From NCBI GenBank assembly GCA_002205965.3, contig NADL03000451.1, forward strand, positions 3,286,001-3,350,000: a DNA stretch of 64,000 bases, given 5' to 3'. The stretch comes from Kappaphycus alvarezii. Its lineage: Eukaryota; Rhodophyta; Florideophyceae; Gigartinales; Solieriaceae. This document shows positions 11,911-63,500 of the stretch, piece by piece (within the stretch, counting starts at the first letter, position 1; the number at the start of each line of letters is the position of its first letter). Under the pieces are notes generated by a model. The model saw only the letters and a list, made by a program, of their open reading frames with translations. It was not told where the DNA came from and made no database searches. The position numbers and the translations under genes are program-made.

Positions 11911-12281
11911 TGTAATACAAAAAATGGTCCTTCCCTCATTTAATACAGGAAATGGTCCTCCCCTCATTTAATACAGGAAATGGTCCTCCCCTCATTTAAT
12001 ACAGGAAATGGTCCTCCCTTCGTGTAATCCAGCAACCTACAACGATCCCGCCCCTAACTTCTCCCACCGTCATTTCCAAATTTACTTCCATTTTATCTAG
12101 ATATTTTTATACTGTATTTAACCCTCTGAATCGACCCCGAATCAAGTCCCTTTTCCCTTTTAGCTTACCTCCTCCTCCAAATTCGCCTTTTTTTGAGAAG
12201 AAGGGCGCAAATGCACTACTGCAAAAATCCCTTGCCGATTTATTTTACCTATTCCTAATCTATAGAACCTGCCCGGGAGCC

Positions 12282-12289
12282 TATTTAAA
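12282..12289 (+). promoter_or_regulatory. Candidate TATA box for the LTR-internal gene
   Basis: TATTTAAA lies 110 bp upstream of the ATG at 12399, in a region conserved between the two element A LTRs and the LTR of element C. Spacing fits a eukaryotic core promoter for the LTR-encoded gene. This is inference from position only. Confidence 0.4.
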
Positions 12290-12398
12290 CCCCTTTATTC
12301 TAAGTTCCAAATGCCCTCGATCATTTTACTCATCACCCCTCTCCCCCGACACACCCAAAACACCCTACATTGCCTCCCGTTCCCCAACGTCTATCAAA

Positions 12399-13025
12399 AT
12401 GAACAACCTTCGCCCCTCTGTCCCTATTTCCAAAAACCGCCCTTCCCGTCCCATCAATGGCCTTCGTCTCGCCGCCTACGGGCCAACCGATGCCGACGAC
12501 TACATCCGGCGGCAAAAATAAGCAAATCATCGAGTTCGTTCGCCGCCTCTTCATAGAAGAAGAAGCGAGGGAGGTAAGTGAGGGAGAGGCTGAGAAGGTC
12601 GAGGAGGAGAGCGGGGAGTCCTTCGAGGAATTGTTAGCCCCTGAGCTAGTGCACGAGGCTCGGGAGAAGGAGGAGGAGGATGAGGAGGATGAGGAGGATG
12701 AGGAGGATGAGGAGGATGAGGAGGATGAGGAGGATGAGGAGGAGGATGAGGAGGAGGATGAGGAGGAGTATGGGAGGAGGATGAGGAGGAGGAGGATGAG
12801 GGAACAGGGGGAATGGAAAGTGTTGGACTGGTGGGGCCTGGAATGGAGAGTATGGATCAAGTTGTGCCCACGATGGAACCGGATGGAGATATCTTTAGTA
12901 ATCTAGATATCTCCCAGGGGGGAATAGAGAGCTGTGAGCCATTCGCAGATATTTGTGGGGACTGCTTGGACAGCATGGATATTTTAGAGGATTTGTTTGG
13001 ATCTGATTTAGAGAATGGGAAATAA
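12399..13025 (+). pseudogene. LTR-encoded acidic protein, frameshifted copy (5' LTR of A)
   Basis: Copy of the gene intact at 36997-37557. Frame 1 starts MNNLRPSVPISKNRPSRP and runs to an early stop (RRQK then stop) caused by a missing base. The acidic tract (12660-12790, repeats of GAGGAT and GAGGAG giving Glu/Asp runs) is then read in another frame. The C-terminal part returns to the first frame, reading MESMDQVVPTMEPDGDIF, then PFADICGDCLDSMDIL and FGSDLENGK before the stop. The two shifts nearly compensate each other. The gene lies wholly within U3, upstream of the main LTR TATA box. Confidence 0.8.
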
Positions 13026-13152
13026 GAGGACCAAATAATTGTTAGTTTCTTAAGTATCTTTTGCTTAGAGCATATTGTCCACACAAAGTATTTTTATGCA
13101 TTTCTTGGTATCTTCTGTAGTTTTGTTCGGACTTTACGGGTAGCCAAAAGTC

Positions 13153-13160
13153 TATATAAG
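13153..13160 (+). promoter_or_regulatory. TATA box of the long LTR
   Basis: TATATAAG in the LTR, about 40 bp upstream of the segment that all LTR types share. This is the expected place for the core promoter driving the genomic transcript, with R starting shortly downstream. It is conserved in the 3' LTR (20705-20712) and in the LTRs of elements B and C. Confidence 0.6.
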
Positions 13161-13194
13161 CTGAGTAAACAGCTTCCTCATGGAGAGGCTAAGC

Positions 13195-13252
13195 AAGTTG
13201 GTAGACAACTTCAGGTCAAGCTCCGAGTAGTAGGAAGTTGAGAGTCAACTTC
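13195..13252 (+). repeat. Two tandem hairpins at the start of R-U5
   Basis: The first is AAGTTG-GTAGA-CAACTT (13195-13211). The second is GAAGTTGA-GAG-TCAACTTC (13234-13252). Both are present in every LTR copy of this family, long or short, and are recognisable in the diverged LTR at 62.8-62.9 kb. They lie just downstream of the TATA box, so they would sit near the 5' end of the element RNA. Confidence 0.65.
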
Positions 13253-13463
13253 AGACCCAAGAAAACTTTTTCCTAAGCTGGTCGCAGAGCATCAGTGGTA
13301 GACCTGACCCTTTTATACTTGCTTGTAGCCCTCTCAACTCTCTCCCATATACACTCCTTTTTATTTGTTCAACTATACCACGGTAGCACTTTTGTCGCTG
13401 CAACACCTCCTTCTTGTGGTGGTTGTTCTGAATATCTCTTCTCCCTACGATTTACCCCTAACA

Positions 13464-13484: not shown

Positions 13485-13550
13485 TTGCACCCGAGGTATT
13501 CGAGTTGAGCAGTCTTAGGGAACCATTCGAGGGATTTCTTTTCTGTAATC

Positions 13551-15452: not shown

Positions 15453-15493
15453 TTCTGGTTTGAAACAGATGACGACTGGAATTCTAGGATAGT

Positions 15494-19459: not shown

Positions 19460-19516
19460 GACAGCGAACACTAACGGAAGCAGAAGAAGAGCAGTGACGC
19501 CCGGGACGTTCGCCTT

Positions 19517-19528
19517 GAGAAAGGGGCG
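19517..19528 (+). other. Polypurine tract of element A
   Basis: GAGAAAGGGGCG directly abuts the TG of the 3' LTR, where plus-strand priming is expected. The equivalent in C is GAGAAAGGGGGCG and in D GCGAGGGGGCG. Confidence 0.7.
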
Positions 19529-21017
19529 TGTAATACAAAAAATGGTCCTCCCCTCATTCAATACAGGAAATGGTCCTCCCTTCGTGTAATCCAGCAACCT
19601 ACAACGATCCCGCCCCTAACTTCTCCCACCGTCATTTCCAAATTTACTTCCATTTTATCTAGATATTTTTATACTGTATTTAACCCTCTGAATCGACCCC
19701 GAATCAAGTCCCTTTTCCCTTTTAGCTTACCTCCTCCTCCAAATTCGCCTTTTTTGAGAAGAAGGGCGCAAATGCACTACTGCAAAAATCCCTTGCGATT
19801 TATTTTACCTATTCCTAATCTATAGAACCTGCCCGGGAGCCTATTTAAACCCCTTTATTCTAAGTTCCAAATGCCCTCGATCATTTTACTCATCACCCTC
19901 TCCCCCGACACACCCAAAACACCCTACATTGCCTCCCGTTCCCCAACGTCTATCAAAATGAACAACCTTCGCCCCTCTGTCCCTATTTCCAAAAACCGCC
20001 CTTCCCGTCCCATCAATGGCCTTCGTCTCGCCGCCTACGGGCCAACCGATGCCGACGACTACATCCGGCGGCAAAAATAAGCAAATAATCGAGTTCGTTC
20101 GCCGCCTCTTCATAGAAGAAGAAGCGAGGGAGGTAAGTGAGGGAGAGGCTGAGAAGGTCGAGGAGGAGAGCGGGGAGTCCTTCGAGGAATTGTTAGCCCC
20201 TGAGCTAGTGCACGAGGCTCGGGAGAAGGAGGAGGAGGATGAGGAGGATGAGGAGGATGAGGAGGATGAGGAGGATGAGGAGGATGAGGAGGATGAGGAG
20301 GAGGAGGAGGGAGGAGGAGTATGGGGAGGAGGATGAGGAGGAGGAGGATGAGGGAACAGGGGGAATGGAAAGTGTTGGACTGGTGGGGCCTGGAATGGAG
20401 AGTATGGATCAAGTTGTGCCCACGATGGAACCGGATGGAGATATCTTTAGTAATCTAGATATCTCCCAGGGGGAATAGAGAGCTGTGAGCCATTCGCAGA
20501 TATTTGTGGGGACTGCTTGGACAGCATGGATATTTTAGAGGATTTGTTTGGATCTGATTTAGAGAATGGGAAATAAGAGGACCAAATAAATTGTTAGTTT
20601 CTTAAGTATCTTTTGCTTAGAGCATATTGTCCACACAAAGTATTTTTATGCATTTCTTGGTATCTTCTGTAGTTTTGTTCGGACTTTACGGGTAGCCAAA
20701 AGTCTATATAAGCTGAGTAAACAGCTTCCTCATGGAGAGGCTAAGCAAGTTGGTAGACAACTTCAGGTCAAGCTCCGAGTAGTAGGAAGTTGAGAGTCAA
20801 CTTCAGACCCAAGAAAACTTTTTCCTAAGCTGGTCGCAGAGCATCAGTGGTAGACTCTGACCCTTTTATACTTGCTTGTAGCCCTCTCAACTCTCTCCCA
20901 TATACACTCCTTTTTATTTGTTCAACTATACCACGGTAGCACTTTTGTCGCTTGCAACACCTCCTTCTTGGGGTGATTGATTCTGAATATCTCTTCTCCC
21001 GACGATTTACCCTATCA
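19529..21017 (+). repeat. 3' LTR of element A (1489 bp)
   Basis: Starts TGTAATACAA and ends CCCTATCA. Compared with the 5' LTR it has fewer copies of the 28-bp unit near its start and a shorter GAGGAT microsatellite; otherwise the differences I see are mostly single-base indels. It is followed by TTAGGTCGAC, not by the 5-mer preceding the 5' LTR. Confidence 0.9.
19958..20576 (+). pseudogene. LTR-encoded acidic protein, frameshifted copy (3' LTR of A)
   Basis: Same gene as at 12399 with the same early break after RRQK. The acidic tract is shorter, and a further base is lost near 20472 (the Gly-Gly before IES). The N-terminus MNNLRPSVP and the C-terminal FGSDLENGK plus stop are kept. In the genomic transcript this copy would lie at the 3' end, before the polyadenylation region. 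Confidence 0.75.
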
Positions 21018-32266: not shown

Positions 32267-33156
32267 ATGTCCTGCCTCCAGTGGTCATCTGCCGCTCCGT
32301 CTTCCTTGGAGAAAAAAAACTCTCCAGACGACCCTGTCGTTCGTCGTATCAATTTCACTTCCGACGACGATCCATTAGACCCTTCCCGAGCCCCGCCCCG
32401 ATCCGACAAGCCGCAGCTTCGCCCGAAGTGAAGTTTCATCGACGACTCCGCTATTGAGTCTGACGGTGAAGGCGGTGATATAACCTCCGCTGAAACCACT
32501 CCGGACGTCGTTTCACTCCCTTCTCACTCTCATAAGAAGACTATCTCTCCCAAGAAGAAGGATTTTCCTCAACACATCTTGGCATTGGGTACAAACAAAA
32601 GGCCCGCAATCGGGAACACCTCCAATAATCTAGTCAAGCTCGGCTCAAAGCCTCTACCCGTCTCTGCAAGCCGTGTGTCGAAACCAAAGAGTCGGAAGAA
32701 ACCAGTTACAAACGTTGCTGCCCCAGTTCAATTTATTAATTTGATCTCTCCTACTCCAGCACCTTCGACACCTCCAGCTCCTGCTCCAGTCACTCTCACC
32801 CAGTCTCCTTTATCGCCTGCGGTGTGGCCTCTTCCTGTTGACCCTCCAGCGTTAAGAATCCCGACTCCGCTTACTCTCGAACTCCTCTTTCCAGCTCCAC
32901 TTCCGTCGCCCACTGTACCTTCTCCTCCACCTCCTGTGGCACCTATGTTTCGGAACCCAAGTCTTCTTTCCTCACCTGTGATCTCTGTCAGCTCAAAGTA
33001 TCGGGTCCGAAGCAACTTGCTCAGCACAGAGGTGGTAGGAAGTGCCGTCACAGATCTGAGCGGAAGTCGGCTATTACTCATTGTGCTCACTGTAACCACG
33101 TCTTCCAAACTAGACACGACCGCAAAAAACACATTGACCACAAACACGAAAACTAA
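32267..33156 (+). pseudogene. Extra copia ORF upstream of gag: zinc-finger protein
   Basis: Starts MSCLQWSSAAPSSLEKK at 32267. Apart from one in-frame TGA at 32429-32431 it stays open to about 32970, giving an acidic N-terminal part (INFTSDDDPLD, IDDSAIESDGEGGD), a lysine-rich patch (HKKTISPKKK) and a long proline-rich segment. After a frameshift the next frame carries two zinc fingers to the stop at 33154-33156. The first is CX2CX12HX5C (CDLCQLKVSGPKQLAQH then RGGRKC); the second is a C2H2 finger CX2CX12HX4H (CAHCNHVFQTRHDRKKH then IDHKH). Total about 296 aa. It ends 33 bp before the gag ATG. Copia elements usually encode a single Gag-Pol, so a separate finger protein is unusual. It may bind element DNA or RNA; that is inference. 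Confidence 0.65.
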
Positions 33157-33188
33157 ATTTTGATTCACTTGGTCCCATTATACTCATC

Positions 33189-34225
33189 ATGGACTCCTCT
33201 GCCGGACCTCGTATTGATAATCTCAAGAAGCTCAGTTATGATAACTTTCACATTTGGAAAGCTAGAATTCAACTAATCCTATCTCTCAGGGAGGTTTACA
33301 ATCATCTTACACTTGATCCACCGGAAGAATCTTCGTTAACTCACTCCGCATGGAAAAAAGCAGATGCCAAGGCAAGAGCCATCATTGGACTCACACTTTC
33401 CGATGCCCACCTTGAGCAATTTCAACATACCACCACAGCCAAGCAAATGTAGAAACTCATTTGTGATATTTTCGAAAAGCATACTCCGCTAAACAAGCTC
33501 GCCGCAAAACGTCGCTTCTATATCGCACAATTGCACCCAAATGAGAAATTTATACTATTTGGTGCTCGTATTCGACAACTTGCGGCCACTCTAAAATCCA
33601 TGTCTGTGTATGTCGAGGACAGCTAAATGGCCATTGCCTTCCTCGATGGCTTGCCCGATCGCTTTGACAGCCTCATATCAGCCCTTGATGCTTCCAATAT
33701 CGAGGATGGCAAGCTTTTGTTCGAATTTGTACAAAATAGATGTCTCCAAGAAGAGCAGCGCCATGCTCAGCGAGATCAAGTCGCACTCAAAGTCGCTGAG
33801 ACGGCTGAACTCCTGGGGACCCAGTCTTCTAAGCCTCGAACAGGAACTTCCGCATAAATGTGCATACACTGCGGCAGGCATCGGGATAGCAACCGATGCT
33901 ACAAGAAGTTCCCTCATCTCGCTCCTAGACGTCATCCAGCTAGAGCTCATCTTGATAAGGCTAGAGGAAGTGGAGGGAAATCCCTCAATGCCATGGGAGG
34001 TTGCTGAAACTACCAAACACCCAGATGTCGTTTTTCTCTTGGCGTCGACTTCCCCTTCACAACAAGTAGCATTTCAATATACCGAAGGCCCTCCTCTCTA
34101 ATCGATGCAATGGATCATCGATTCAGGATGTACCTTGCATCTCACTCACGACCGCTCAGCTTTCACGAGTTATCACCTTCTCGCTCTTCTCGCGTCCCCT
34201 TCAACTCTCGACCTTGGGGCAGATT
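33189..34225 (+). pseudogene. gag: Copia Gag and start of protease
   Basis: Begins MDSSAGPRIDNLKKLSYDNF, then WKARIQLILSLREVYNHL, the retrotransposon Gag fold of copia elements. The frame has a TAG where Trp is expected (QM-stop-KLICDIFEKH, 33450), a TAA near 33625 and another at 33855. It then continues into a zinc-knuckle remnant CIHCGRHRDSNRCYKK, one residue shorter than the usual spacing. The protease start follows in another frame: WIIDSGCTLHLTHDRSAF (about 34108-34160) with the DSG active site. The sequence stops at the junction with element B near 34225. Confidence 0.82.
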
Positions 34226-34590
34226 CTAAGATCTGAAACGCTCCATGCAATCAGTTCTGAAGATGTTAACATGTCGGATATTTTCAGTGAGGCGGGGGCT
34301 GGAAGGTGCTGTACCTTTTCTTGAATTTCTGCCACTTGGCGCTGGTCTTCTTCTCGAGCGCCTCCCTCCAAATTTTGAAGGACCTCTTCCGGCGTGCTCA
34401 CACCTTCAGATATGGAATTTGATATATTCTTGTTTTCCTTGCAAATGTAATCTTCTTTCATGCTCCGAATCCCGTCCTTTGATTCGATATTATCGCAAAA
34501 AGAAACACATTCAGGTGTCAAACCTACCCTGTAATTCCAGTCTTCATCTGTTTCAAAACCAGAATCATAATCGTCCCATGCCATGTTCAT
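34226..34590 (-). pseudogene. Truncated start of pol, element B
   Basis: The pol frame starts at the ATG whose A overlaps the last base of the gag-protease stop (TAATG, 34588-34592 on the minus strand). It runs MNMAWDDYDSGFETDEDW and CVSFCDNIESKDGIRSMKED, and is cut off at the copia junction before any RT motif. Confidence 0.7.
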
Positions 34591-36465
34591 TACCCCCAAG
34601 GGTACCCTTTTCCACTTCCGAAAGTGTTCGTTGGTTCCGAATCTTCGCTGTCATAGCTAGAAGTGAAATCTTCACTGTCCGTTTCTTTTAAATCTTCAGG
34701 ATGCGTGCTTTTGTCGAAATCCAGGGGCATCTTCACGGTTCTGCCGTCAATATTAACTGAAACCATTTGATTGTCCAAGTCAATGCATATCCCTAGTCTT
34801 TCCATGGTAGGGCAGCCAATGATTGCATCGAAAGGGAGATCAGGCATGACAAGAAAGTCTACATCAACTTTAGAGTCCCCAAAGACCACGGAAACATTGT
34901 CAACAGTGCCCATGCATTTTGAGACGGTTCCATCCGCTACAGTTATTTTTCGAGTCGTTAGAGTAATGTCGAGACCTAGATCTGTCACCCAAGTTTCTGA
35001 AATGAGGTTTGGAACAGCACCCCAATCGAAGAGAGCCTGAGTTTTCATACCCAATACTTTGACTGGTACCAGCTTAAGACGTCTTGGTGCTGTCGAGGCC
35101 GATTGAAGAAACAGTTTCTTGCCCTTAGCGGACTTATTGGACCTGATAATTTTTTTGAGTTCTTTTCTGGCATCCTCTGCGTCGCCCCTCGAAAGTTGAC
35201 CAAAAGTTATTCCAGGTGGGGCTGATGCAAGCTCAGCTACCAGATTGTACTTCTTCACATATTCTAGTACGTCCTTCGAAATACTCTTAAATTTCCTACT
35301 CTTTTTCGTCTTCTTGGCCGAAGTGTTTCCCACTCCTGGAACAACTTGATCAGTCCTCTTGGTTCGAGGAGGTACAGGTGCTGGGATATGCTCCAGCATT
35401 CCATAATCTAGCCTCGGTTTTTTCGATAAAATGTTCCCTTCCCATCCCTTTTTGTCACATTGACTTGATTGATTTCTTCAGCGATGGATACATTACCGGC
35501 ATCCGTCAACCTTTGATCCTTCCTGTTTTGTAAGATTTTCACCTCTGGCCCTGACTCACTCCTCGCATCCGATAAATTTGCTCTTCTGTTGTCTTTAGAC
35601 CAGTAGTTACTTTCATGATGCCCATATCGACCGCACTTTCCACAACGAGTGTTTCTATGTGGATTATCAGGACACCTGTTTGCAAAGTGTCCAGGCTTGT
35701 GACAGTAAGAACAGACTTCTGCGGCCTTAGGGGCCCCAGACTGTTTCTTCTTTATGGTAAGAGTAAGGCTTTCCAACTGCGAGGTTATCATGTCAAGTCG
35801 ATTATCGAATCGGTTTTCCAACCTTTCTTCCAAGTTTTTGACATCGCTCCTTACAGATTCCAATGCTGCTGCGCTAGTAGCTGGCCTTTGATAATTCTTT
35901 TCAGGATGTACGATCGGCATAGATGTACGGGTTTCCCTCGGTATTTCACTTAGTGACTGAAACGTCTCCGAATTTTTGACAAATTCTACTATGGTACCCT
36001 TCAGTTCATTAAAAGTGTGAGGGCCCTTGATGAGGAGGAAATCAGAGAGCCGCTTATCCCCATCGCCGCCTTACGCAGCATTCCGTACTTGGCTTGGGCG
36101 TTGAACCCAGCCTTTTCATAGAGATCACACAAGTATACCAATGAGCTTAACAAATCGTCGAAGTTGAGCCGGGCCTCTATGGCGGTACGAATCATCTCAT
36201 CTGGTTCTACCTGCTTAGCATATTCTTTCACAAGCCACTCACATACCTCACCGAAGTTACGCCCATTCCCGTTAAGAGACCACCCGTTGATAAACTTGGC
36301 CTTATATTTGTGCTTTGCGTCACCATGAAGATAGGCGAAGATACTTTCAGCCTCCTCTTCATCGCTCTTCTCACGCATCAGAACGTTGACATATGTATAG
36401 AGAAACTCCTCAACGTCTTCACTCTTGCCCCCTGTAAACGATGTACGAGCAGCGTTGAGATCCAT
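34590..36465 (-). pseudogene. gag: Gag-protease of element B (least broken copy)
   Basis: Starts MDLNAARTSFTGGKSEDVEE at 36465. Two indels (near 36060 and 35405) split it into ORFs of 154, 170 and 269 aa. The middle ORF carries both zinc knuckles, the second reading CGKCGRYGHHESNYWS with its last Cys changed to Tyr. The last ORF is the protease: active site LFDWGAVPNLIS, where Ser of the usual DSG is Trp here (A has DSG). That change should inactivate the protease in this copy. The frame ends GKGYPWG with a TAA that overlaps the pol ATG. Confidence 0.85.
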
Positions 36466-36554: not shown

Positions 36555-37932
36555 TGATAGGTATAAATCGTCGGGAGGAGAGATACTCAGAACCAACTAC
36601 CCCAAGAAGGAGGTGTTGCAGGCGACAAAAGTGCTACCGTGGTATAGTTGAGCGAACAAAAAGGAGTGTATATGGAAGAGAGTTGAGAGGGCTACAAGCA
36701 AGTATGGAAGGTGCAGGGTCTACCACTGATGCTCTGCGACCAGCGTAGGGAAAATGTTTCTTGGGTCTGGAGTTGACTATGAACTTCCTACCACTCGGGA
36801 CTTGACTTGAAGTTGTCTGCCAACTTGCTTGAACTCTCCATGAGGAAGCAGTTTACTCAGCTTATATAGACTTTCGGCTACCCCATAAATCCGAACATAA
36901 CTACAGAAGATACCAGGAAATGCATAAAAACGATCTGTGTGGACGATATACTCTAAACAATAGATACCTAAGAAAATAACAAGCAATATGGTCCTCTTAT
37001 TTCCCATTCTCTAAATCAGATCCAAACAACTCCCTTAAAATATCCATGCTGCCCAAGCAGTCCCCACAGATATCTGCGAACGGCTGATAACTCTCTATTT
37101 CCTCCCGGGAGATATCTAAACTACTGAAGATATCCCCATCCAGTTCCATCGTCGGTAACACTTGTTCCATAAGTTCCACCGCTCCAACACTTTCCATGCC
37201 TCCCTGTCCTTCATCCTCCTCGTCCTCGTCCTCATCCTCGTCCTCGTCTTCGTCCTCGACATCCTCCTCATTCTCCTCTTCCTCCTCATCATTAACCTCG
37301 TAGACCAGTTCCGGGGCTGCCCACTCCTCGAAGGTCTCCCCAGCTCCCCCCTCGACTTCCCACTCCTGCCTCTCAGGTACTTCCTCGGCCTCATCCTCGA
37401 CGAAGAGTTTGCGGACGAACTCGATTATCTTCTTCTTATTCTGGCGTCGCAGGTAGTCGTCTGCGTCCGTCGGGCCATATGCAGCGAGCGAAATGCCGTT
37501 TAAGGGGCGAGAGGGGCGGTTTTTGGTGATGGGGGCGGAGGGGCGAAGGTTGTTCATTTTGGTTGCAAATGATTGTGGACGGAGGATAGAGGGTGTGAGG
37601 GGGAGGGTAGTGTGTGAAGGGGTTGGTGGATCTCAAAAAAAGTTGGGTAAAATCGGTTTAAGTACACCTTAGAGGCGGACTGGAGTCGGTACTAAAAAGT
37701 TAAAATCGAAATTGCAGTAGCGCATTTGCACGGAATTTCTACATAAGGAGTGAGTTTGATGAAGAAGGTAGATTAAAAAAGACGTAAAACGCTAATTTGG
37801 AGGAGAGGATACAGTATTAAAATATCTAGGGAGAATGGGAGGCAAATTTGGAAAGAACGGTGAGAGAAGTCAGGGGCGGGATCGTTGCAAGTTGCTGGAC
37901 TACACGAGGGGAGGACCATTTTCTGTACTACA
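36555..37932 (-). repeat. 5' LTR of element B (long type, 1378 bp)
   Basis: On the minus strand it starts TGTAGTACAGAAAATGG and ends CCTATCA, followed by the primer-binding bases TTTGGTACTCTTGTGG. It lacks the extra 28-bp units seen in element A. It contains the intact LTR gene at 36997-37557 and a TATATAAG box (36865-36872, minus strand). The bases beyond 37932 belong to a LINE ORF. Confidence 0.88.
36997..37557 (-). CDS. LTR-encoded acidic protein, intact (186 aa)
   Basis: The only uninterrupted copy of a gene lying entirely inside the long LTR. Layout: a basic, Pro/Arg-rich N-terminus (MNNLRPSAPITKNRPSRP); a conserved block (GLRLAAYGPTDADDY in most copies, then RRQ and KKKIIEFVRKLFVEDEA); a Glu/Asp-rich tract of about 75 residues encoded by an imperfect microsatellite; and a conserved C-terminus (MEQVLPTMELDGDIFSSLDI, then PFADICGDCLGSMDIL, then FGSDLENGK). 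There is no signal peptide or membrane segment. Copies at 12399, 19958, 44224, 60895 and 62992 preserve the N-terminal and/or C-terminal blocks. I do not recognise the family. The hydrophobic-acidic C-terminus resembles acidic transcription-activation segments, so a role in LTR regulation is possible, but this is inference. Confidence 0.72.
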   Translation of the reverse strand: MNNLRPSAPITKNRPSRPLNGISLAAYGPTDADDYLRRQNKKKIIEFVRKLFVEDEAEEVPERQEWEVEGGAGETFEEWAAPELVYEVNDEEEEENEEDVEDEDEDEDEDEDEEDEGQGGMESVGAVELMEQVLPTMELDGDIFSSLDISREEIESYQPFADICGDCLGSMDILRELFGSDLENGK

Positions 37933-37944
37933 CAATCCTAGTCA

Positions 37945-38913
37945 ATTGCTTTCGCCAGGCCATCAGGAATCCCGCGGGTTCCCCCTTCGTGGCTTGCAGC
38001 ATGCACTGACTACTGATCTCGAGGACTACAAGTATGATCGCTTCACGGCATCCCTCACCCCTGTTTCCAAAACGCGTCATGTGTTTACCACTGCTTCGTC
38101 GTCCCCATTACCCTTCTCCACTCTTCCACTCAGCGGTAACGATTCCCGAGCTGCTCCTGAGGTATGGATTACTATGGTCTGTTTACGTCTCGGCGAGCCA
38201 CTTTTCTCTGGATCCCGTTCATGCACAATATGTTCCCGTTTAACTGCCATGCTAGATGTTCATGGTCATCAAGCCATGATGTGCAGTACTGGCGCCGGTA
38301 GCGTTCGCCGCCACGACGCCCTTCGTGCCGAGCTAGCTCGGTCAATCCGCCATACTGCTCTACTCCACGGTGTTTGCGTTTCTCGGAGCAGTGCTTTCCA
38401 GATCCTCCACATCCTTCTTTTGGCTTCGTTGTGGCCTCCCAACTGACCGGAGAGGAACGACATGCTCGAATTGACCGAATTTATCCCTCTGCTTCTTCCG
38501 CGACCCAACTCCGCCTAGATGTGCTTATTAATGACTCCGAGTTCGCTGCGAGTCCGCAGGCCGTTGATGTCTCTCTCATCAGTACGCACTCATCCGGGTT
38601 TCGTTCTTGTCCTCCACATGGTCATATCTCCAAGACAGAATCTGAGAAACGCCACCATTACCATACTTTATGCGAATACTACGGACTGGACCTGCACCCC
38701 ATGATTGCTGATTTCTATGGTTGCATGGGACCCGGGTTTGATCAAGCTGTGCAACAAATCGCCCACTTTCTCGCCAGCAATCGTGGTACCTCTGTTGCCG
38801 CAGAGAAACATTCGCTCCTCGTTAGGTTCGTATACCTGAGAGTCCAATACGTTGCTACGTCCGTTAATCGGCGGCGTCTTGACCAGACCACCGATTTGGC
38901 GCCTGATGTGTAG
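37945..38913 (+). pseudogene. LINE C-terminal region (zinc motif and conserved tail)
   Basis: Plus-strand coding remnant of a non-LTR retrotransposon, lying downstream of where RT would be. The first frame (to 38446) has RLGEPLFSGSRSCTICSRL, then MLDVHGHQAMMCSTG and VRRHDALRAELA: a CX2C...HX4C zinc-binding arrangement typical of this LINE group. After a shift near 38390 the second frame (to 38913) gives RLDVLINDSEFAASPQAVDV, KTESEKRHHYHTLCEYYG and TSVNRRRLDQTT. The D...D...K pattern could be nuclease-like. It begins right beside the LTR of element B, so B probably inserted into or beside it. Confidence 0.72.
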
Positions 38914-41163: not shown

Positions 41164-41810
41164 TGATAAGGGTAAATTGTCTGGAGAAGAGATATTCAGA
41201 ACCAACCACCCCAAGAAGGAGTTGTCGCAAGCGAGAAAAGTGCTACCGTGGTATAGTTGAACAAATAAAAAGGAGTGTATATGGAAGAGAGTTGAGAGGG
41301 CTACAAGCAAGTAAAAAAGGGGCAGGGTCTACCACCGACGCTCTGCGACTAGCGTAGGAAAAAATTTGCTTGGGTCTGAAGTTGACTCTCAACTTCCTGC
41401 TACTCGGAGCTTGACCTGAAGTTGTCTGCCAACTTCCTTTATGCTTTGTGTTTGACTTAATTTGTTGAGCGCCCCGCTCGGGTATGCTGGCTCCCAAGTA
41501 GTCCTACCATTTCATGCAAACAGCCCCTTATATAGAGTTTTCAACCCTCACATTCTGTAGCACCTATACAGTGCCTATTTGCCAAATCTGCACCGCCACA
41601 GTACAGTGCAAAGCATCCTCTAAAAATAATAAAAAATATAATTGTAAGTACAGTGCCAACTCAGCCAGCGCAGCATGCCAACTCAGCCAGCACAGCATGC
41701 CAACTCGGCCAGCGCAGCATGCCAACTGAGCCAGCGCAGCCAGCTCAGCCAGCGCAGCCAGCTCAGCCAGCGCAGCATGCCAAGGAATATCTACAATTTT
41801 CATTATATCA
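41164..41810 (-). repeat. Solo LTR, short type (647 bp) with 5-bp duplications
   Basis: On the minus strand it starts TGATATAATG and ends CCTTATCA, and is flanked on both sides by CCCCC (41159-41163 and 41811-41815), consistent with a target-site duplication left after LTR-LTR recombination. It shares its last about 265 bp with the long LTRs, but its U3 has a tandem-repeat block (41655-41785) instead of the acidic-protein gene. Confidence 0.85.
41655..41785. repeat. U3 tandem repeats of the short LTR
   Basis: Imperfect 18-22-bp units built on CAGCCAGCGCAGC, some with ATGCCAACT. Four longer units are followed by three shorter ones. The same block with the same order is at 53429-53556 and 58571-58696. 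Confidence 0.8.
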
Positions 41811-41944: not shown

Positions 41945-43781
41945 GGCGCAATGCCTGTTCTATGTGCAATTAATTTGCGCAGTGCGCTTGGTACTTGCAG
42001 CACAAAATGAGGGAAAGAATAGATTTATAGAACGCGGGGCACTTCAGAACACTATGGGCGCAAGCACTCGACCAGCCCAAACACCGCATCGCACGAGCTC
42101 GGTCCACTTCGGACCAGCAACAGGCCAATGTAAAACGGGCGACAAAACTGGCCAAAGAAGGTGCATACGGAAAGGCTGCACAAGCTTTGCGCTCGCTAGG
42201 TGTTCTACCAGCTACCAGTGATGTAATCGATGCCCTTATCGATAAACATCCCCAGCAGGCCCCCGATGAAACAACTCCAGTCAGGGGAACATCTTCTACC
42301 AACTACAGTTTCCGACGGCTCACTGAAGACGAAGTCCTTGGTGCTATCAGGGCTTTTAAACCAGGATCCTCTCCCGGAGGCTCAGGTCTAAAGCCTTGCC
42401 ACCTGGTGGAATTGCTAAGATGTCCATCCTCACCGGGGAATTCAGGCTTTTTGGCAGCTCTTACGAGACTTTTTAATGTTCTAGCAACTGGAAAAGCACT
42501 AGCCTTTCTCGCTCCTTGGATCGCTGGTGCTCCACTTACCCCGTTGGGGAAGAAGGACATGTCGCCCAGGCCAATCGCCGTTGGGCAAACGCTGCGCAGG
42601 TTAGTCGGTAGTTGCTTAATGAAGCGAGTGTCCGAGAAGGCGGCAGACTACCTCCTACCTCTCCAAGTGGGTATCGCCACAAAGTCGGGTACCGACACAG
42701 TCGTGCACGGAATCCGACGAGTCGTCCAGGAGTACGGCAGTAACCCAGCATATGGGTTATTGACTGTCGATCTCAAGAACGCTTTTAATATGTGCAGCAG
42801 GCCGCTTTTCTGACCGCGGTGAGACAGCTGTTCCCAGAGTTACATCCTTGGGTCTCATATTGCTATGCAAACGAGCCCGCATTCCTGTGGATAGGTAGTC
42901 ACACAATAAGAAGCGTCTGCGGACCCAACAGGGAGACAATCTTAGAGGCCTCCTCTTCGACCTGGTGCTGCACCCTATTATCCTCAAAATACAAGAACTC
43001 TTCAGTTCAGAGGAAGGGGAGAACAGAGACTTGGCAAAGTTGTTACTCCAACTGTGGTACCAAGATGACGGGTACATTATCGGGCGCCACGACCAACTCG
43101 TCAAAGCCATCGAAGTACTTCGCTCCGTGGATGCTGAAAGCCGAGGACTGCACTTGTCGCTGCCGAAGTGCACCGTCTGGTGGCCTACAGCCCCTCCAGA
43201 GTCAGCAAAGAGTCTCTACCCAGACGGGATTAAGCAAGAGTACAGCGAGGGTACTTCCGTCCTGAACGCCCCCGTCGGTACTAAGGAATACACCACACGG
43301 TCCTTTACGAAACATGTCTCATCCCTCAGACCATTCCTCGAGACCATTGCTGACCTTGAGAATAGGCAAGTGGCATTCTAGCTACTGCGCAACTGTTTTG
43401 GCGTATGCAAAGTAGGCTATTTGTTGCGGGTAGTGCCCCCGTCTTGCACTGGAGAAGGAGCGGAAGAGTTCGACAGGATGATGGAGGACTGTGTTCGAAA
43501 ATTGGCAGGGGAGTACTGGATTCGGAAGTATTCCGAGAACTCCAGCTGCCGGTCACACCAAAGGACAAGAAAAAACCATCTCTTGGGATAGGACTCACCT
43601 CCGCGAAGAACATCGCGGCTGCGGCGTTCTTGGCTTCTAGCTCATCATCTAGCAAGCCTTGCAAGACCTTGCTCCCAACGCCTATTAAGGAACTAGGAAC
43701 ATACGAAGCAGCTGCAGATGCCCATCGGAGATGGTCGACCTCTTGCCTGCCGTCTAGGATTATCCCGTTCAGCGTAATTTG
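41945..43781 (+). pseudogene. LINE reverse transcriptase (5' portion of interrupted LINE)
   Basis: Non-LTR retrotransposon RT in three frames. From about 42045: LWAQALDQPKHRIARAR, ATKLAKEGAYGKAAQALRSL, then FRRLTEDEVLGAIRAFKPGS, PIAVGQTLRRLVGSCLMKR and LLTVDLKNAFN (about 42760-42790). After a shift: FLTAVRQLFPELHPWVSYCY. After another, LLLQLWYQDDGYIIGRHDQL with the catalytic YQDDG at about 43057-43071, then LHLSLPKCTVWWP. After a stop near 43381 it continues CFGVCKVGYLLR. The reading stops at 43781 where the LTR of element C begins. The likely continuation is at 50732 on the far side of C. Confidence 0.82.
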
Positions 43782-45236
43782 TGATAGGGATAAATCGTCG
43801 GGAGAAGAGATACTTAGAACCAACTACCCCAAGACGGAGGTGTTGCGAGCGACAAAAGTGCTACCGTGGTATAGTTGAACAAATAAAAAGGAGTGTATAT
43901 GGGAGAGAGTTGAGAGGGCTACAAGCAAGTATAATAGGGGCAGCGTCTACCACTGATGCTCTGCGACCAGCTTAGGAAAAAGTTTTCTTGGGTCTGAAGT
44001 TGACTCTCAACTTCCTACTACTCGGAGCTTGACCTGAAGTTGTCTGCCAACTTGCTTGACCTCTCCATGAGGAAGCAGTTTACTCAGCTTATATATACTT
44101 TTGGCTACCCGTAAAGTCCGAACAAAACTACAGAAGATACCAAGAAATGCATAAAAATACTTTGTGTGGACAATATGCTCTAAGCAAAAGATACTTAAGA
44201 AACTAACAATTTATTTGTTCCTCTTATTTCCCATTCTCTAAATCAGATCCAAACAAATCCTCTAAAATATCCATGCTGTCCAAGCAGTCCCCACAAATAT
44301 CTGCGAATGGCTCACAGCTCTCTATTCCCCCTGGGAGATATCTAGATTACTAAAGATATCTCCATCCGGTTCCATCGTGGGCACAACTTGATCCATACTC
44401 TCCATTCCAGGCCCCACCAGTCCAACACTTTCCATTCCCCCTGTTCCCTCATCCTCCTCCTCCTCCTCCTCCTCCCATACTCCTCCTCATCCTCATCCTC
44501 CTCATCCTCCTCATCCTCCTCATCCTCCTCCTCCTTCTCCCGAGCCTCGTGCACTAGCTCAGGGGCTAACAATTCCTCGAAGGACTCCCCGCTCTCCTCC
44601 TCGACCTTCTCAGCCTCTCCCTCACTTACCTCCCTCGCTTCTTCTTCTATGAAGAGGCGGCGAACGAACTCGATGATTTGCTCCTTTTTTTGCCGCCGGA
44701 TGTAGTCGTCGGCATCGGTTGGCCCGTAGGCGGCGAGACGAAGGCCATTGATGGACGGGAAGGGCGGTTTTTGGAAATAGGGACAGAGGGGCGAAGGTTG
44801 TTCATTTTGATAGACGTTGGGGAACGGGAGGCAATGTAGGGTGTTTTGGGTGTGTGGGGGAGAGGGGTGATGAGTAAAATGATCGGGGGCATTTGGAACT
44901 TAGAATAAAGGGGTTTAAATAGGCTCCCGGGCAGGTTCTATAGATTAGGAATAGGTAAAATAAATCGGCAAGGGATTTTTGCAGTAGTGCATTTGCGCCC
45001 TTCTTCTCAAAAAAAGGCGAATTTGGAGGAGGAGGTAAGCTAAAAGGGAAAAGGGACTTGATTCGGGGTCGATTCAGAGGGTTAAATACAGTATAAAAAT
45101 ATCTAGATAAAATGGAAGTAAATTTGGAAATGACGGTGGGAGAAGTTAGGGGCGGGATCGTTGTAGGTTGCTGGATTACACGAAGGGAGGACCATTTCCT
45201 GTATTAAATGAGGGGAGGACCATTTTTTGTATTACA
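43782..45236 (-). repeat. 3' LTR of element C (long type, 1455 bp)
   Basis: On the minus strand starts TGTAATAC and ends ATCCCTATCA. Very close to the LTRs of element A in U3. In U5 it shares variant positions with the 3' LTR of element D (AAGACGG, ACTTAGAACC on the plus strand). Confidence 0.9.
44224..44805 (-). pseudogene. LTR-encoded acidic protein, frameshifted copy (LTR of C)
   Basis: MNNLRPSVPISKNRPSRP starts at 44805. A one-base loss follows (ARG-PRO then frame change). The RRQKK region is intact here, unlike in A, and the Glu/Asp tract is shorter. The C-terminal FGSDLENGK and stop (44224-44226) are kept. The breaks differ from those in element A, which means the breaks arose independently. 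Confidence 0.75.
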
Positions 45237-45388: not shown

Positions 45389-46570
45389 TTACTGGTACCT
45401 CACTTTGTAGCATAGCCTCATATATTGGTTTGTTAACATCGAGGTGGGGTTGAATACATTCTTCTTCCGTGACTCTTCCGAATCTTCCAAGAGTGAAAAA
45501 TATATGTGATATGCAAACTCTTCTGGAAGATGCCGGAGGAATGGATGCCGATAAGAAAAGAAGACGCGCATCATCAAGAACGAATCTTCGTAAGATAAGT
45601 GCGGTCCATGTAGCGCCCTAAAACATAAACAGATGCTTATCATGAAATAAGAAATGACCTGCGCATCGTTCGCATCCTCGGAGATATTGCGCAGCCAAAA
45701 AGATAATCTTCTTCTTCCGACTGTATGCTGTGCATGGTTGTGAAGGAGAGCTAGAGATGAAGTTGTGGTGGACGTCCCGATGAATGGCCGCGACCAGCTC
45801 CTGACGTACTGGGACCTGCGACCGGAAACTCTTCTGGGCGGGTTGTTGTCTCCCGAAGGTCCTTCTCTGGTCATCATCACTGCTTCAGGAGGATCCTCGC
45901 CGCCTCCAACGTTCCCAATTTGTGGCGGAGAAACGTAAGGTTCCCATAGAGGATACGGGACCAGTCTGTACTCCATATCCGGGGGTAAGGCGTAGCCTCT
46001 CAGTCGCACGTCTTGGTTGTTCCTGAGAAATACGTAAATTGGACGGATAATATTCAGATACGTTTGCGATAAGTCTCCAGCAGCTACCATTCCATATCGT
46101 CCTACAGAGTAATGATATATTACCTCCACAAACTCTGGACCTGCTTCCGTGAACCTTCCGTTTTGGAATGAAAATAGAACTCTTATTAATAGTCGGAAAT
46201 CTTCTTCAGGTAGCAATGGTCCGTTCAGCGTACGAAAACATAGGCATATATTAATGTAGAAATGGATGATTACGTGGAGCTCGTAGTAGTCCCGCGTAAT
46301 CGAGATGATCCATTCCCAGGCCCTTTTTCCTCCCATAGGAATCATTCTATAGCTAAAGATGAGTATGCCCCGTGGTTGCGCATAGTCCTGTGTGAGAAGG
46401 AATTCTTCAGGCCTCTGATGATAAGGGACCAGACGACGTGCATGGATAGCCCTCCTTGATCTCTTCCCTGAGCTTGAACAGAGCTGATAGTGCGGGTGTC
46501 TTTCCTCCGTGACGATGCAAGGGTTCGAGTACTTGGTTTGGAAGGCCGGCCACTTCACAGCCTGCTGCAT
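45389..46570 (-). CDS. Integrase tail plus duplicated-module extension, open in C (393 aa)
   Basis: Best-preserved copy of the Pol C-terminus. It starts in the integrase C-terminal domain (MQQAVKWPAFQTKYSNPCIV, RRAIHARRLVPYHQRPEEF) and runs without a break into module copy 1 (IISITRDYYELHVIIHFYIN, ICLCFRTLNGPLLPEEDF, GRYGMVAAGDLSQTYL, IIRPIYVFLRNNQDV, YRLVPYPLWEPYV), a linker rich in Gly, Pro, Arg and Ser, and module copy 2 (MISICLCFRALHGPHLSYED, MMRVFFSYRHPFLRHLPEEF). A late -1 shift gives a wrong last 35 residues; element A shows the proper end GNQLHPYPFERPYIYQ. The fusion shows this is part of Pol and not a separate envelope-type gene. Its function is unknown. Confidence 0.75.
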   Translation of the reverse strand: MQQAVKWPAFQTKYSNPCIVTEERHPHYQLCSSSGKRSRRAIHARRLVPYHQRPEEFLLTQDYAQPRGILIFSYRMIPMGGKRAWEWIISITRDYYELHVIIHFYINICLCFRTLNGPLLPEEDFRLLIRVLFSFQNGRFTEAGPEFVEVIYHYSVGRYGMVAAGDLSQTYLNIIRPIYVFLRNNQDVRLRGYALPPDMEYRLVPYPLWEPYVSPPQIGNVGGGEDPPEAVMMTREGPSGDNNPPRRVSGRRSQYVRSWSRPFIGTSTTTSSLALLHNHAQHTVGRRRLSFWLRNISEDANDAQVISYFMISICLCFRALHGPHLSYEDSFLMMRVFFSYRHPFLRHLPEEFAYHIYFSLLEDSEESRKKNVFNPTSMLTNQYMRLCYKVRYQ

Positions 46571-52946: not shown

Positions 52947-53585
52947 TGATAGGGGTAAATCGTCGGGAGAAGAGATACTTAGAACCAACTACCCAAGACG
53001 GAGGTGTTGCGAGCGACAAAAGTGCTACCGTGGTATAGTTGAACAAATAAAAAGCAGTGTATATGGGAGAGAGTTGAGAGGGCTACAAGCAAGTATAAAA
53101 GGGGCAGGTCTACCACTGATCTGCGACTGCTAGGAAAAAGTTTTCTTGGGTCTGAAGTTGACTCTCAACTTCCTACTACTCGGACTTGACTGAAGTTGTC
53201 TGCCAACTTCCTTTATGCTTTGTGTTTGACTTAACTTGTTGAGCGCCCCGCTCGGGTATGCTGGCTCCCAAGTAGTCCTACCATTTCATGCAAACAGCCC
53301 CTTATATAGAGTTTTCAACCCTCACATTCTGTAGCACCTATACAGTACCTATGTGCCAAATCTGCACCGCCACAGTACAGTGCAAAGCATCCCTCTAAAA
53401 ATAATTAAAAATATAATTGTAAGTACAGTGCCAACTCAGCCAGCGCAGCATGCCAACTCAGCCAGCACAGCATGCCAACTCGGCCAGCGCAGCATGCCAA
53501 CTGAGCCAGCGCAGCCAGCTCAGCCAGCGCAGCCAGCTCAGCCAGCGCAGCATGCCAAGGAATATCTACAATTTTCATTATATCA
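52947..53585 (-). repeat. 3' LTR of element D (short type, 639 bp)
   Basis: On the minus strand starts TGATATAATG and ends CCCCTATCA. It has the tandem-repeat U3 block at 53429-53556 and the shared R-U5 with two hairpins. Some U5 positions (AAGACGG, ACTTAGAACC) match the LTR of element C and not the 5' LTR of D. Confidence 0.9.
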
Positions 53586-53649
53586 CGCCCCCTCGCTCAA
53601 GACGAACGTCCCGACTCGTCATCATTCTTCTTCTGTTTCTATTAATGTA

Positions 53650-57999: not shown

Positions 58000-58088
58000 G
58001 ATTACAGAAAAGAAATCCCCTCGAATGGTTCCCTAAGACTGCTCAACTCGAATACCTCGGGTGCAACCCCCTCCACAAGAGTACCAAA

Positions 58089-58727
58089 TGATAGGGGTAA
58101 ATCGTCGGGAGAAGAGATATTCAGAACAACCACCCCAAGAAGGAGGTGTTGCGAGCGACAAAAGTGCTACCGTGGTATAGTTGAACGAACAAAAGGAGTG
58201 TATAGGGAGAAGTTGAAGGGCTACAAGCAAGTATAAAAGGGGCAGGGTCTACCACTATGACTGCGACTGCTAGGAAAAAGTTTTCTTGGGTCTGAAGTTG
58301 ACTCTCAACTTCCTACTACTCGGACTTGAGCTTGAAGTTGTCTGCCAACTTCCTTTATGCTTTGTGTTTGACTTAACTTGTTGAGCGCCCCGCTCGGGTA
58401 TGCTGGCTCCCAAGTAGTCCTACCATTTCATGCAAACAGCCCCTTATATAGAGTTTTCAACCCTCACATTCTGTAGCACCTATACAGTACCTATGTGCCA
58501 AATCTGCACCGCCACAGTACAGTGCAAAGCATCCCTCTAAAAATAATTAAAAATATAATTGTAAGTACAGTGCCAACTCAGCCAGCGCAGCATGCCAACT
58601 CAGCCAGCACAGCATGCCAACTCGGCCAGCGCAGCATGCCAACTGAGCCAGCGCAGCCAGCTCAGCCAGCGCAGCCAGCTCAGCCAGCGCAGCATGCCAA
58701 GGAATATCTACAATTTTCATTATATCA
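58089..58727 (-). repeat. 5' LTR of element D (short type, 639 bp)
   Basis: Same ends and length as the 3' LTR. Minus-strand TATA box TATATAAGG at 58442-58450 and tandem-repeat block at 58571-58696. It is followed inward by the primer-binding bases TTTGGTACTCTTGTGGAGG (58070-58088, minus strand). Confidence 0.92.
58442..58450 (-). promoter_or_regulatory. TATA box of the short LTR
   Basis: TATATAAGG on the minus strand, about 95 bp upstream of the segment shared with the long LTR. Conserved in the copies near 41530 and 53303. Confidence 0.55.
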
Positions 58728-60453: not shown

Positions 60454-61793
60454 TGATAGGGGTAAATCGTCGGGAGAAGAGATATTCGGAACCAACTACC
60501 CCAAGAAGGAGGTGTTGCAAGCGACAAAAGTGCTACCGTGGTATAGTTGAACGAATAAAAAGGAGTGTATATGGAAGACAGTTGAGAGGTCTACAAGCAA
60601 GTATGGAAGGGGCAGGGTCTACCACTGATTCTCTGTGAGCAGCGTAGCAAAAAGTTTTCTTGGTCTGAGGTTGACTCTCAACTCACTACTACTCAGGACT
60701 TGGCTTGAAGTTGTCTGCCAACTTGCTTAAACTATCCACGAGGAAGCAGTTCACTCAGCTTATATAGACTTTTGGCTACCCCTAAAGTCCGAACAAAACT
60801 ACAGAAGGTACCAAGAAATGCATACAAACAATTTGTGTGGATGATATACTCTAAACAAAAGATGCTTAAGAAACTAACAATCAATGAGGTCCTCTTATTT
60901 CCCATTCTCTAAATCAGATCCAAAAAACTCCTCTAAAATATCCATGCTGTCCAAGCAGTCCCCACAAATATCTGCGAATGGCTCATAGCTCTCTATTCCC
61001 TCCTGGGAGATATCTAAACTAACAAAGATATCTCCATCCGGTTCTAGCGTCGGCACCACTTGTTCCATACTCTCCAGTCCAGGCCCCACCAGTCCAACAC
61101 TTTCCATGCCTTCTGTTCCCTCATCCACCTCGACCTCGTCCTCGTCCTCATCCTCACCATCCTCCTCTTCCTCCTCCTCCTCCTCTTCCTCCCCATCCTT
61201 CTCCTGAGTCTCGTACACTAGCTCAGGGGCTAACCATTCCTCGAAGGACTCCCCGCTCTCCTCCTCGACTTTCTCAGTCTCATCCTCACTTACCTCTCGC
61301 CTCTTCTTCTATGAAGAGGCGGCGAACAAACTCGATGATTTTCTTCTTAGTTTGCCGCCGGACGTAGTCGTCGGCATCGGTTGGCCCGCAGGCGGCGAGA
61401 CGGAGGCCATTGAAGGGACGGGAAGAGCGGTTTTTGGAGATACGGACAGAGGGGCGATTTGACGTCATATTTCTGGAAAAGGGGTGAGCGGGGTTGCGGA
61501 TGTTGACAGAAAGAGTAATCAGCTTATCAAATTGTTGGTGGTAGGAGTGATGCTTCAGCGACAATGCTATAGAACTTTAAATAGGGGCATGTCTGTGGTA
61601 ATCATCATGGTCTTGGTCAAAAAAAGGCGATACTGCGGCCTTGAATTTGCATGAATTCGGGGGCATCATAAAAATCTGCGTGATAAAATATCGGAACTGA
61701 ATTTGGGAGGCGAAGTGACCGCGAATTGAAAGGCGTCTTTTTGAAGGAAGAGGACCAAATATTCAAACATAAAATAGGAAATGGAGTCGTACA
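60454..61793 (-). repeat. Diverged long-type LTR (solo)
   Basis: Ends CCCCTATCA on the minus strand (60454). Its R-U5, TATA box and acidic-protein gene align with the other long LTRs. The far end is less certain; TGTACGACTCCATTTCC at 61793 is the best candidate start. No internal element sequence follows on either side, so this is a solo LTR. The flanking 5-mers do not match. Confidence 0.7.
60895..61468 (-). pseudogene. LTR-encoded acidic protein, diverged copy with one break
   Basis: N-terminus MTSNRPSVRISKNRSSRPFN at 61468, then PTDADDYVRRQTKKKIIEFV and RRLFIEEEA. A frameshift near 61298 follows. The rest is then open through the acidic tract (DGEEEEEEEEEEDGEDEDED) to GPGLESMEQVVPTLEPDGDI, FVSLDISQEGIESYEPFADI and FGSDLENGK with the stop at 60895. 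Many codon-level differences from element A leave the protein nearly unchanged. Confidence 0.75.
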
Positions 61794-61839
61794 GTGAATT
61801 TGGATTCATAAAGGAAAAATATATTCAGAATTTGTTTTG

Positions 61840-62640
61840 GGAAGACAAAGGTAGGACGATTGGTCAACGACTGATTTCAAGGTGCGAAGAGGACCTTTTT
61901 TCGTTCCGACAGATATCATGGCTTTGACAGACCTCGCCATAATGACAGTGTTTCGCACGTTCTGCGAGGCTAGCGGCAGCGCGTTCGCACTGAGCTCAGT
62001 TGGAAACTCGTGACTGGGCGTCAGTATGTGCCACGGTGACGTCCACAGCGATATCGCGGTGGTCCAGGCCGTAAGCACTGGGGATGTACAGGTCCATACG
62101 CAATGTAGAAGGGAGGATATTCAATAAGCACCGAGATGCCAAACTTCTCTGCAGAAGCGTTGCGTAGCATTGTGTGGGACATTGTGTCGGCGCGTTTGGC
62201 CTTCCCCAGTTTGCATGTAGGAGGGTGCATACCATCTGGATCTAGAACGTGAGCGACTTTGTTGGACCGTCTGGAGCACACGAGGCAGCGTGTAGTACCT
62301 GGAAATCGCAGAATACCGAAACGAAGGGACATGGCGACAATCCAAGCGGAAGAAAGCGACGTTTCGCTCTAGAGTTGGGGGTGGGGGGGTAGAGAAAACA
62401 GAACTGGAAAAGGATTCATGGACGGAGAGAAGACGAGGCCAACCGGCGGCGGAGGAAGACTTGAAGAGGCGGTCAGAATTTGAGGCCAGGAGTTCAGTGG
62501 TGATCATAGATTGGAAGGGTTCGCCGGGGGCCGGGAACGGCAGCGCTCGAAAAGGGCTGTTGCAGTCAGGGCGGAAGACAGCGTTGGATACCGTGCTTTC
62601 AATAACGAAATGGCGGATCTGGGCAGTTCCTCCAGATGCA
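61840..62640 (-). pseudogene. LINE C-terminal region (minus strand)
   Basis: Order on the minus strand: FKSSSAAGWPRLLSVHESFS (about 62470), FRLDCRHV, then in the next frame FGILRFPGTTRCLVCSRRSN and VLDPDGMHPPTCKLGKAKRA (zinc motif CX2C...HX3C, about 62190-62290). Next come MDLYIPSAYGLDHRDIAVDV with TVAHTDAQ (about 62020-62110), then SANALPLAERAKHCHY after a shift. The arrangement equals that of the LINE at 38 kb. It is bounded by LTR-type repeats on both sides. Confidence 0.68.
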
Positions 62641-62643: not shown

Positions 62644-63500
62644 TGATAGGGTGAAAATGGAGCCGGCAAAAAAGGGAACCACTTACTACCCGGGGTGAGA
62701 GTCGTTGCGAGCGACTAAATTGTTACGATAGACGCTAACGGGCGGTGGAGAGGAATGGGCGTGAAAGCTGAGTGACTGCCCTAGTACCCAACTCTAAAGG
62801 GGCAGAATCTACCACATATGCTCTGCGACTGGCTTAAAAGCTGTTCCTGGCTCTGAAGCTGACTTTCAACTTCTTAACTATTTTAGACTGGACCTAAAGT
62901 TGTCTGCCAACTTTCTTTTCCGTCTCATGGAGGAAGCAATTTACTTCGCTTGTACAGACTTTTTTCTTAAACTAAACTATCGATAAAACTACTAGAAGCA
63001 CCATAAAAAGTAGGGGAAGACTTCATGCGGACGCAAAGAATCTTGACAGAAGATATTTGGGTCAAGATAATAAATGACTCTACTCCTCAAATATTCATTT
63101 TCTAGATCAGATCCTAGAAATTCCCTTAAGAAATCATTTGTGCCCATGTACTCCCAACACATACTTGCGGATGGCCCAAAATTTTCTGCGCCTTCCTGCA
63201 AAGAATACACCCCCTGAATTCCCCCAACCGATTCCATGGCCGGGACCACCTGGTCCAACCAGTTCATTCCATCCCTCCCATATGACCCAGTCCGGGGCAC
63301 CTTTCTTCGTCTGCTGACTCATTGTCTTCTTTACCTTCCTCCCCGGCCTCTTCCAGGGCTTCATGCATGAGCCGAGATGTATTACTCTAAGGGGAATAGC
63401 AGTAGATAGATTCTGTTCTCGGAATTTGTCGTAAATGGAATTGACAGGAGTCCAACGCTGGACGCTGCAATTGGGGAAGTCGATCCAATTCATTTAATCT
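62644..63500 (-). repeat. Strongly diverged long-type LTR
   Basis: Begins at TGATAGGG (62644) beside the LINE fragment. It aligns with the family R-U5 through GTTGCGAGCGAC, GGGGCAGAATCTACCAC, AAGTTGTCTGCCAACTTTC and GGAGGAAGCAATTTACT, and then with the 3' half of the acidic-protein gene. The outer end cannot be placed; about 63500 is a guess. Confidence 0.55.
62992..63300 (-). pseudogene. LTR-encoded acidic protein, most diverged copy (C-terminal part)
   Basis: Reads MNWLDQVVPAMESVGGIQGV, LQEGAENFGPSASMC and MGTNDFLREFLGSDLENE, aligning without frame change to MESMEQVVPTLEPDGDIF and FGSDLENGK of other copies. The usual stop after DLENGK is lost, so the frame runs on. The upstream acidic part is not recognisable; the matching region lies in another frame (HEALEEAGEEGKEDNESAD near 63330-63370). 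Confidence 0.6.

Follow-up and report, generated by a model that had tools for sequence, protein, structure and literature searches.

We found that an open reading frame of 186 codons, lying wholly inside the long terminal repeat (LTR) of a Ty3/gypsy-type retrotransposon of the red alga Kappaphycus alvarezii, is well supported by codon comparison as a protein gene kept by purifying selection across LTR lineages. The window, by which we mean the whole stretch of 64,000 nucleotides that was analysed, holds several copies of one Ty3/gypsy-type element, namely elements A, B, C and D, the solo LTR E, a D-type solo LTR and the remnants F and G. The intact copy of the gene (36997..37557, minus strand, 186 codons plus stop) lies in the 5' LTR of element B (36555..37932, minus strand, 1378 bp, TGTAGTAC...CTATCA, with TG...CA ends). 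It runs in the sense of gag-pol with its coding sequence in U3, the extent of U3 being judged from the second of two TATA boxes and from a block in common with element D. The plus-strand translation of the same interval is broken by stops. A preliminary description of this DNA had placed an uninterrupted frame of 186 amino acids in the LTR of element B, and it was borne out, on the minus strand.

Results

The host element

In element A (11911-21017, plus strand) Pfam recognised an aspartyl protease, RVT_1 and RT_RNaseH, followed by rve and Integrase_H2C2; gag gave no Pfam match above the cut-off. Read from the sequence, this order of gag, protease, RT/RNase H and integrase is that of a Ty3/gypsy LTR retrotransposon. 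The LTRs run TG...CA, and 5-bp target duplications were found for E (ATATC), D (GAATG) and the D-type solo LTR (GGGGG). No matching target duplication was found for element A, and B and C are incomplete as to this comparison. Element B (minus strand) consists of the 5' LTR, gag and the protease region only: the N-terminal part of gag, named by position, is at 36001..36465 (minus strand), the piece after it had a weak zinc-knuckle match below the cut-off (E 0.018), and the protease region at 34590..35399 (minus strand) was assigned from the Pfam match of its homologue in element A. Element C (minus strand) lacks its 5' end. Element D (52947-58727, minus strand) has short LTRs and the GAATG duplication at its flanks.

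After the C terminus of integrase the elements carry an extension of about 350 amino acids (45392-46636, minus strand; 18154-18561 and 18671-19459, plus strand), the two halves of which match each other (74 aa, 41% identity, E 5e-15). The extension had no match in Pfam or NCBIfam, and element D had no match to it. A search with the element RT against viral contigs gave 8 stretches that fitted a pattern, none of them a relative. Other observations in the window were a copia-type gag fragment (PF14223, E 4.8e-07) at 33138-33446 on the plus strand and open frames at 42031-42810, 37952-38910 and 59148-59942 (plus strand) that by eye resembled pieces of a non-LTR retrotransposon; their best Pfam match, at 42187-42813, was a weak one to RVT_1 (E 0.3), and a further Pfam search gave none. 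The observed/expected CpG ratio of the window was 0.83, there was no RIP-like dinucleotide skew, and Rfam and tRNA searches found none.

Gene copies across the window

The full-length gene was present in all five long LTRs (A5, A3, B5, C3 and E) and in none of the three short D-type LTRs. As read, one of the five copies, that of B, was open from start to stop. The others were recovered in pieces by tblastn of the U3 protein within the window, the matches falling inside 12399-13022, 19958-20573, 44805-44227 and 61468-60898. The gene was frameshifted at 12399-13025 in the 5' LTR of element A (11911..13463, plus strand), at 19958-20576 in its 3' LTR (19529..21017, plus strand) and at 44805-44224 in the 3' LTR of element C (43782..45236, minus strand), and had a 2-nt break at 61468-60895 in the complete solo LTR E (60454..61911, minus strand), which is flanked by its ATATC duplication. 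The start of the A 5' LTR also holds 4.3 tandem copies of a 28-nt unit (11913-12032, plus strand), which by eye are fewer in A3 and C3. The old LTR remnant F (62796..63371, minus strand) keeps the C-terminal part of the gene at 63258-63097, mainly the last 55 residues, at 42% identity by tblastn within the window. Of remnant G, only the part downstream of the gene position can be recognised, and the best tblastn match in G (E 0.037, 18 residues) was not convincing. Thus the same protein could be read, in pieces, near 12399, 19958, 44224 and 60895, as described earlier; the copy placed at 62992 was found as a gene trace, but at a slightly different position and in a remnant. The breaks were said to differ between separate elements, and they do, A5 and A3 having one frameshift in common.

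Some of these breaks should be read with care. One-nucleotide indels were over-abundant between several near-identical element copies, many of them in base runs. A5 and A3 differed by 12 indel events (10 of 1 nt) versus 6 substitutions, and indels versus substitutions numbered 53 versus 90 for A-C, 50 versus 70 for A-D and 61 versus 130 for C-D; the excess was smaller elsewhere (A-B, 12 versus 117; D5-D3, 5 versus 21). An excess of 1-nt indels is typical of assemblies from noisy long reads, and some of the frameshifts in the U3 gene may be assembly or sequence errors of the uncorrected long-read type, so that the number of intact copies is a minimum. Since one frameshift is common to both LTRs of element A, this element, if the break is real, seems to have transposed carrying a gene that was already broken, and the U3 gene would therefore not be needed in cis.

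Selection on the protein

Copy B was compared by codon with A5, A3, C3 and E in the frame of B, gapped codons being left out. Over the N block (residues 1-85, 80-84 codons compared) dS was 1.35-1.48 and dN 0.20-0.21, a ratio of 0.14-0.15, and the changes were mostly in third positions (16, 14 and 40 by codon position for B-E; 17, 12 and 41 for B-A3). Over the N and C blocks together the ratio was 0.18-0.24 with no stop codon; in the wrong frames the same four comparisons gave 0.98-1.95 with 9-11 stop-containing codons. For B-E, B-A3 and B-C3, none of 3000 neutral simulations reached the observed pN/pS, either for the N block or for both blocks, and 128-140 of 3000 stayed free of stops over both. 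The comparisons with B have one deep divergence in common (B versus A/C/E) and hence amount to one strong test rather than several.

The C block was not clearly constrained when its codons were taken alone: its ratio was reached by 990, 67 and 66 of 3000 simulations, and frame 2 was similarly low in ratio, at 0.35-0.39 beside 0.27-0.51 in the ORF frame. The A3-E ratio over both blocks was 0.47, reached by 234 of 3000 simulations, and for remnant F the observed ratio was reached by 161 (A-F), 287 (E-F) and 922 (B-F) of 3000. Conservation of both terminal blocks, as first proposed, therefore held for the N block (0 of 3000) but not clearly for the C block by itself. A dN/dS near 1, or mere low complexity, had been named beforehand as grounds for giving up the gene; among the copies in the window neither applied to the N block, since the signal came from this non-repetitive N-terminal block.

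Promoter-like boxes

Two promoter-like boxes flank the gene. In B, the TATA-like box 1, TACTTAAA (37657..37664, minus strand), a putative gene promoter, stands 99 nt before the ATG, and TATA box 2, CTATATAAG (36861..36869, minus strand), a putative promoter of the genomic RNA, stands 127 nt after the stop. Box 1 reads TATTTAAA in A, C and E in the same aligned column (A5, 12282-12289; A3, 19842-19849, plus strand; C3, 44914-44921; E, 61576-61583, minus strand), 107-109 nt before the ATG. It is thus kept in three gene-carrying U3 types despite U3 being only about 45-58% alike there per 60-nt block (A5-B5). Box 2 follows the stop by 126-127 nt in A5 (13152-13160), A3 (20704-20712), B5 and E (60759-60767), on the same strands, has a one-base variant in C3, and stands shortly before the block common to element D, which in B covers 36555..36830 (minus strand) and which LTR comparison suggests to be R-U5. 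The leader is rich in pyrimidines, at 0.64-0.69 over 80 nt against a window mean of 0.50 (sd 0.10). This is not special, because 14.6% of the 80-nt stretches of the window reach at least 0.65 on either strand.

The simplest reading of the two boxes is that U3 contains two promoters, one for the gene and one for the genomic RNA. With box 1 before the gene and the putative box 2 after it, a genomic RNA would include the gene at its 3' end alone, a position from which translation would be difficult. This arrangement suggests that the U3 gene is better described as a separate transcription unit.

Properties of the protein

The U3 protein is strongly acidic (pI 4.05, charge -44, GRAVY -0.91). Residues 1-60 are slightly basic, residues 92-117 form an Asp/Glu run coded by a GAGGAT-like repeat, and the C terminus is acidic with bulky hydrophobic residues. 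By a simple count with our own cut-off, the protein contained 37 acidic-hydrophobic windows of 40 residues versus 2, 0, 0 and 0 in gag, protease, RT and ORF3. Such a composition resembles that of transcriptional activation domains; no DNA-binding domain was recognised, and no membrane segment or enzyme motif was seen by eye. Structure prediction gave a poor model (mean pLDDT 51, pTM 0.22) in which residues 31-53 form a helix (pLDDT 71, 78 and then 53, by tens) and residues 171-178, in the C terminus, a short one.

Profile searches returned weak matches only (best E 0.13 in Pfam, 0.18 in NCBIfam and 0.4 in PDB). In the protein database, residues 1-86 gave 10 candidates and residues 117-186 gave one, none of them a match. 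The whole protein gave at least 5 matches at E<=10 (at least 8000 candidates), none of which was accepted. The window's own protein was not among the matches listed; the host is therefore probably missing from that database, and a lack of matches there carries little weight. The best match of the whole protein (E 0.04, 41% identity over 33% of the query), a protein with PF04079, which we take to be SMC_ScpB, was judged to reflect acidic composition. The description of an acidic protein outside known families thus agreed with the Pfam, NCBIfam, PDB and protein database searches, and the profile search and structure prediction proposed with it yielded no family and the low-pLDDT model given above.

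Mosaic history of U3 and the D-type elements

Synonymous difference between B and A was 0.07-0.08 in gag and protease, and over the N block in U3 it was 1.3-1.5. Per 60-nt block, A5 and B5 were 85% identical where the LTR begins, 45-58% ahead of the gene, 62-80% in the N block, 42-60% in the acidic repeat and 82-92% beyond. E and A3 were 85-98% identical per block within and after the gene, the acidic repeat excepted, and upstream of the gene E had no blastn match to A at E 1e-20, so that E has an A-like N terminus below a diverged upstream U3. This mosaic indicates that lineages have traded pieces of U3, namely its 5' part together with the gene's N-terminal half, and template switching during reverse transcription is the probable route. 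The N-terminal half can stand under a different upstream U3, as E shows, and we dropped the idea that they co-evolved as site and protein because E breaks the pattern.

The D-type LTRs (5' LTR, 58089..58727; 3' LTR, 52947..53585; solo LTR, 41164..41810; all minus strand) lack the gene. They have only their last 267-276 nt in common with the long LTRs, read as R-U5, and their U3 is unrelated. Element D had no match to A 17870-19528; it lacks the U3 gene, the pol extension and the last part of integrase. It is therefore probably a non-autonomous short-LTR derivative driven by the long-LTR family. D-type elements have moved without the U3 gene; we dropped this as proof that the gene is useless, given that D is probably non-autonomous. 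The preliminary description had not anticipated the exchange of U3 pieces, the gene-less short-LTR derivative or the 1-nt indels that cast doubt on the breaks.

Discussion

The reading that we tentatively put first is that U3 houses a self-contained accessory gene with its own promoter, whose product regulates the LTR promoters of the element in trans. Box 1 would start a short unspliced mRNA that runs through the gene and ends at a poly(A) site within R/U5 of its own LTR, and box 2 would start the genomic RNA. The acidic protein would work in the nucleus and in trans, activating or otherwise regulating the LTR promoters of the element itself. Its layout (basic N terminus, helix, Asp/Glu tract, acidic-hydrophobic C terminus) suggests a transcriptional activator like foamy-virus Tas, though as a regulator the protein is weakly supported. 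The whole unit is contained in each long LTR, and so in the solo LTR E as well, which lets the gene outlast the body of the element. A wider version, which we consider possible but rather doubtful, is that U3 acts as a stand-alone regulatory mini-gene in every LTR, supplying a trans-acting regulator to its own family and to parasites that lack the gene, D among them, with the 5' U3/N-terminal module exchanged in reverse transcription. A gene under selection for its protein within U3 would mean that a solo LTR could still supply a protein of the element once the rest is lost.

The evidence for selection (B versus A/C/E) applies equally to a real gene with a different task, its product serving Gag or the particle, nuclear import, integration targeting or an anti-silencing step. 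No domain points to transcription, and acidic, mostly unstructured proteins are found in many roles. The position between two promoter-like boxes and the acidic-hydrophobic C terminus, however, fit a regulator at least as well, and the hydrophilic protein shows nothing to the eye of a membrane protein or an enzyme. We regard such a task as somewhat unlikely, yet as the most serious alternative to a regulator.

Base composition raises another origin, in which U3 captured a host gene that is a passenger within the element, its conservation being the host gene's own. Third-position GC is 0.74 in the N block and 0.51 in the C block versus 0.56, 0.43, 0.48 and 0.42 in gag, protease, RT and ORF3, the gene has a promoter-like region of its own, and four of its five full copies are broken as read. 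In three U3 lineages it nevertheless occupies one and the same place in the LTR and the ratio between lineages is low, a pattern that fits selection during its life in the element, and the protein database searches gave no relative, though the window's own protein was also not among the matches listed; capture is improbable in our judgement. That the frame arose by chance on a purine-rich low-complexity strand, or that selection acts on the DNA rather than the protein, could draw on the GAGGAT-like repeat and on a C block conserved about as well as the nearby R-U5 and with an equally low frame 2 ratio, but the N block is of another kind, with changes mostly in third positions, and the frame comparison and simulations already disfavour this reading, which we hold to be very improbable.

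Retrotransposon LTRs are treated as control DNA. In a literature search that covered few subscription journals and was judged from titles and the starts of abstracts, no listed paper described a gene lying entirely within the U3 of a retrotransposon. Infectious retroviruses provide the nearest positional parallels: MMTV sag and lentiviral nef have coding sequence in U3 and hence in both LTRs, nef starts outside the LTR, and both products are made largely from spliced or alternatively started RNAs. The comparison with nef and sag that was drawn at first stands for position, the coding sequence being sense and in U3, but not beyond it: the protein is of a different type, and a separate transcription unit fits better. 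Among Pfam and PDB sequence matches none was better than E 0.13, and the model of mean pLDDT 51 was too poor for a comparison of folds.

Extra genes are known from other LTR elements. Plant LTR retrotransposons such as Grande (gene23), RIRE2 and Retand have additional ORFs, which are kept in most family copies and whose role is described as undetermined; gene23 is transcribed from its own promoter, and such ORFs are described as lying in the internal region, mostly between pol and the 3' LTR, in sense or antisense (PMC7264820). The U3 gene is likewise kept in most copies of its family; unlike them, it is sense and inside the LTR. Bdelloid rotifer ORF3s are family-specific extra genes in LTR elements with modules in common; in the published account they form a third ORF beside gag and pol, typically from spliced messages, and are env-like or enzymatic (PMC5408684). 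The likeness is an extra gene exchanged as a module, and the difference, as far as that account goes, is that ORF3s are counted beside gag and pol whereas the U3 gene sits in the LTR. An orchid Ty3/gypsy lineage carries an AlkB-type ORF for an RNA demethylase acting on m6A, said to boost the element's own expression (PMC12786077). It too is an extra ORF of a Ty3/gypsy element, with a demethylase in place of an acidic protein.

The gene for Tas/Bel1 of foamy viruses reaches into the 3' LTR. This accessory protein has a C-terminal acidic activation domain and binds to elements of the LTR and of a second promoter, an internal one (PMC517496). The acidic C terminus of the U3 protein would fit such a domain in composition; here, by contrast, the gene and its promoter-like region both lie in U3, and no sequence relation was found. 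A gene under such selection within U3 would also mean that accessory regulation in the style of complex retroviruses arose separately in a retrotransposon; the parallel with Tas is a likeness of working and not of descent.
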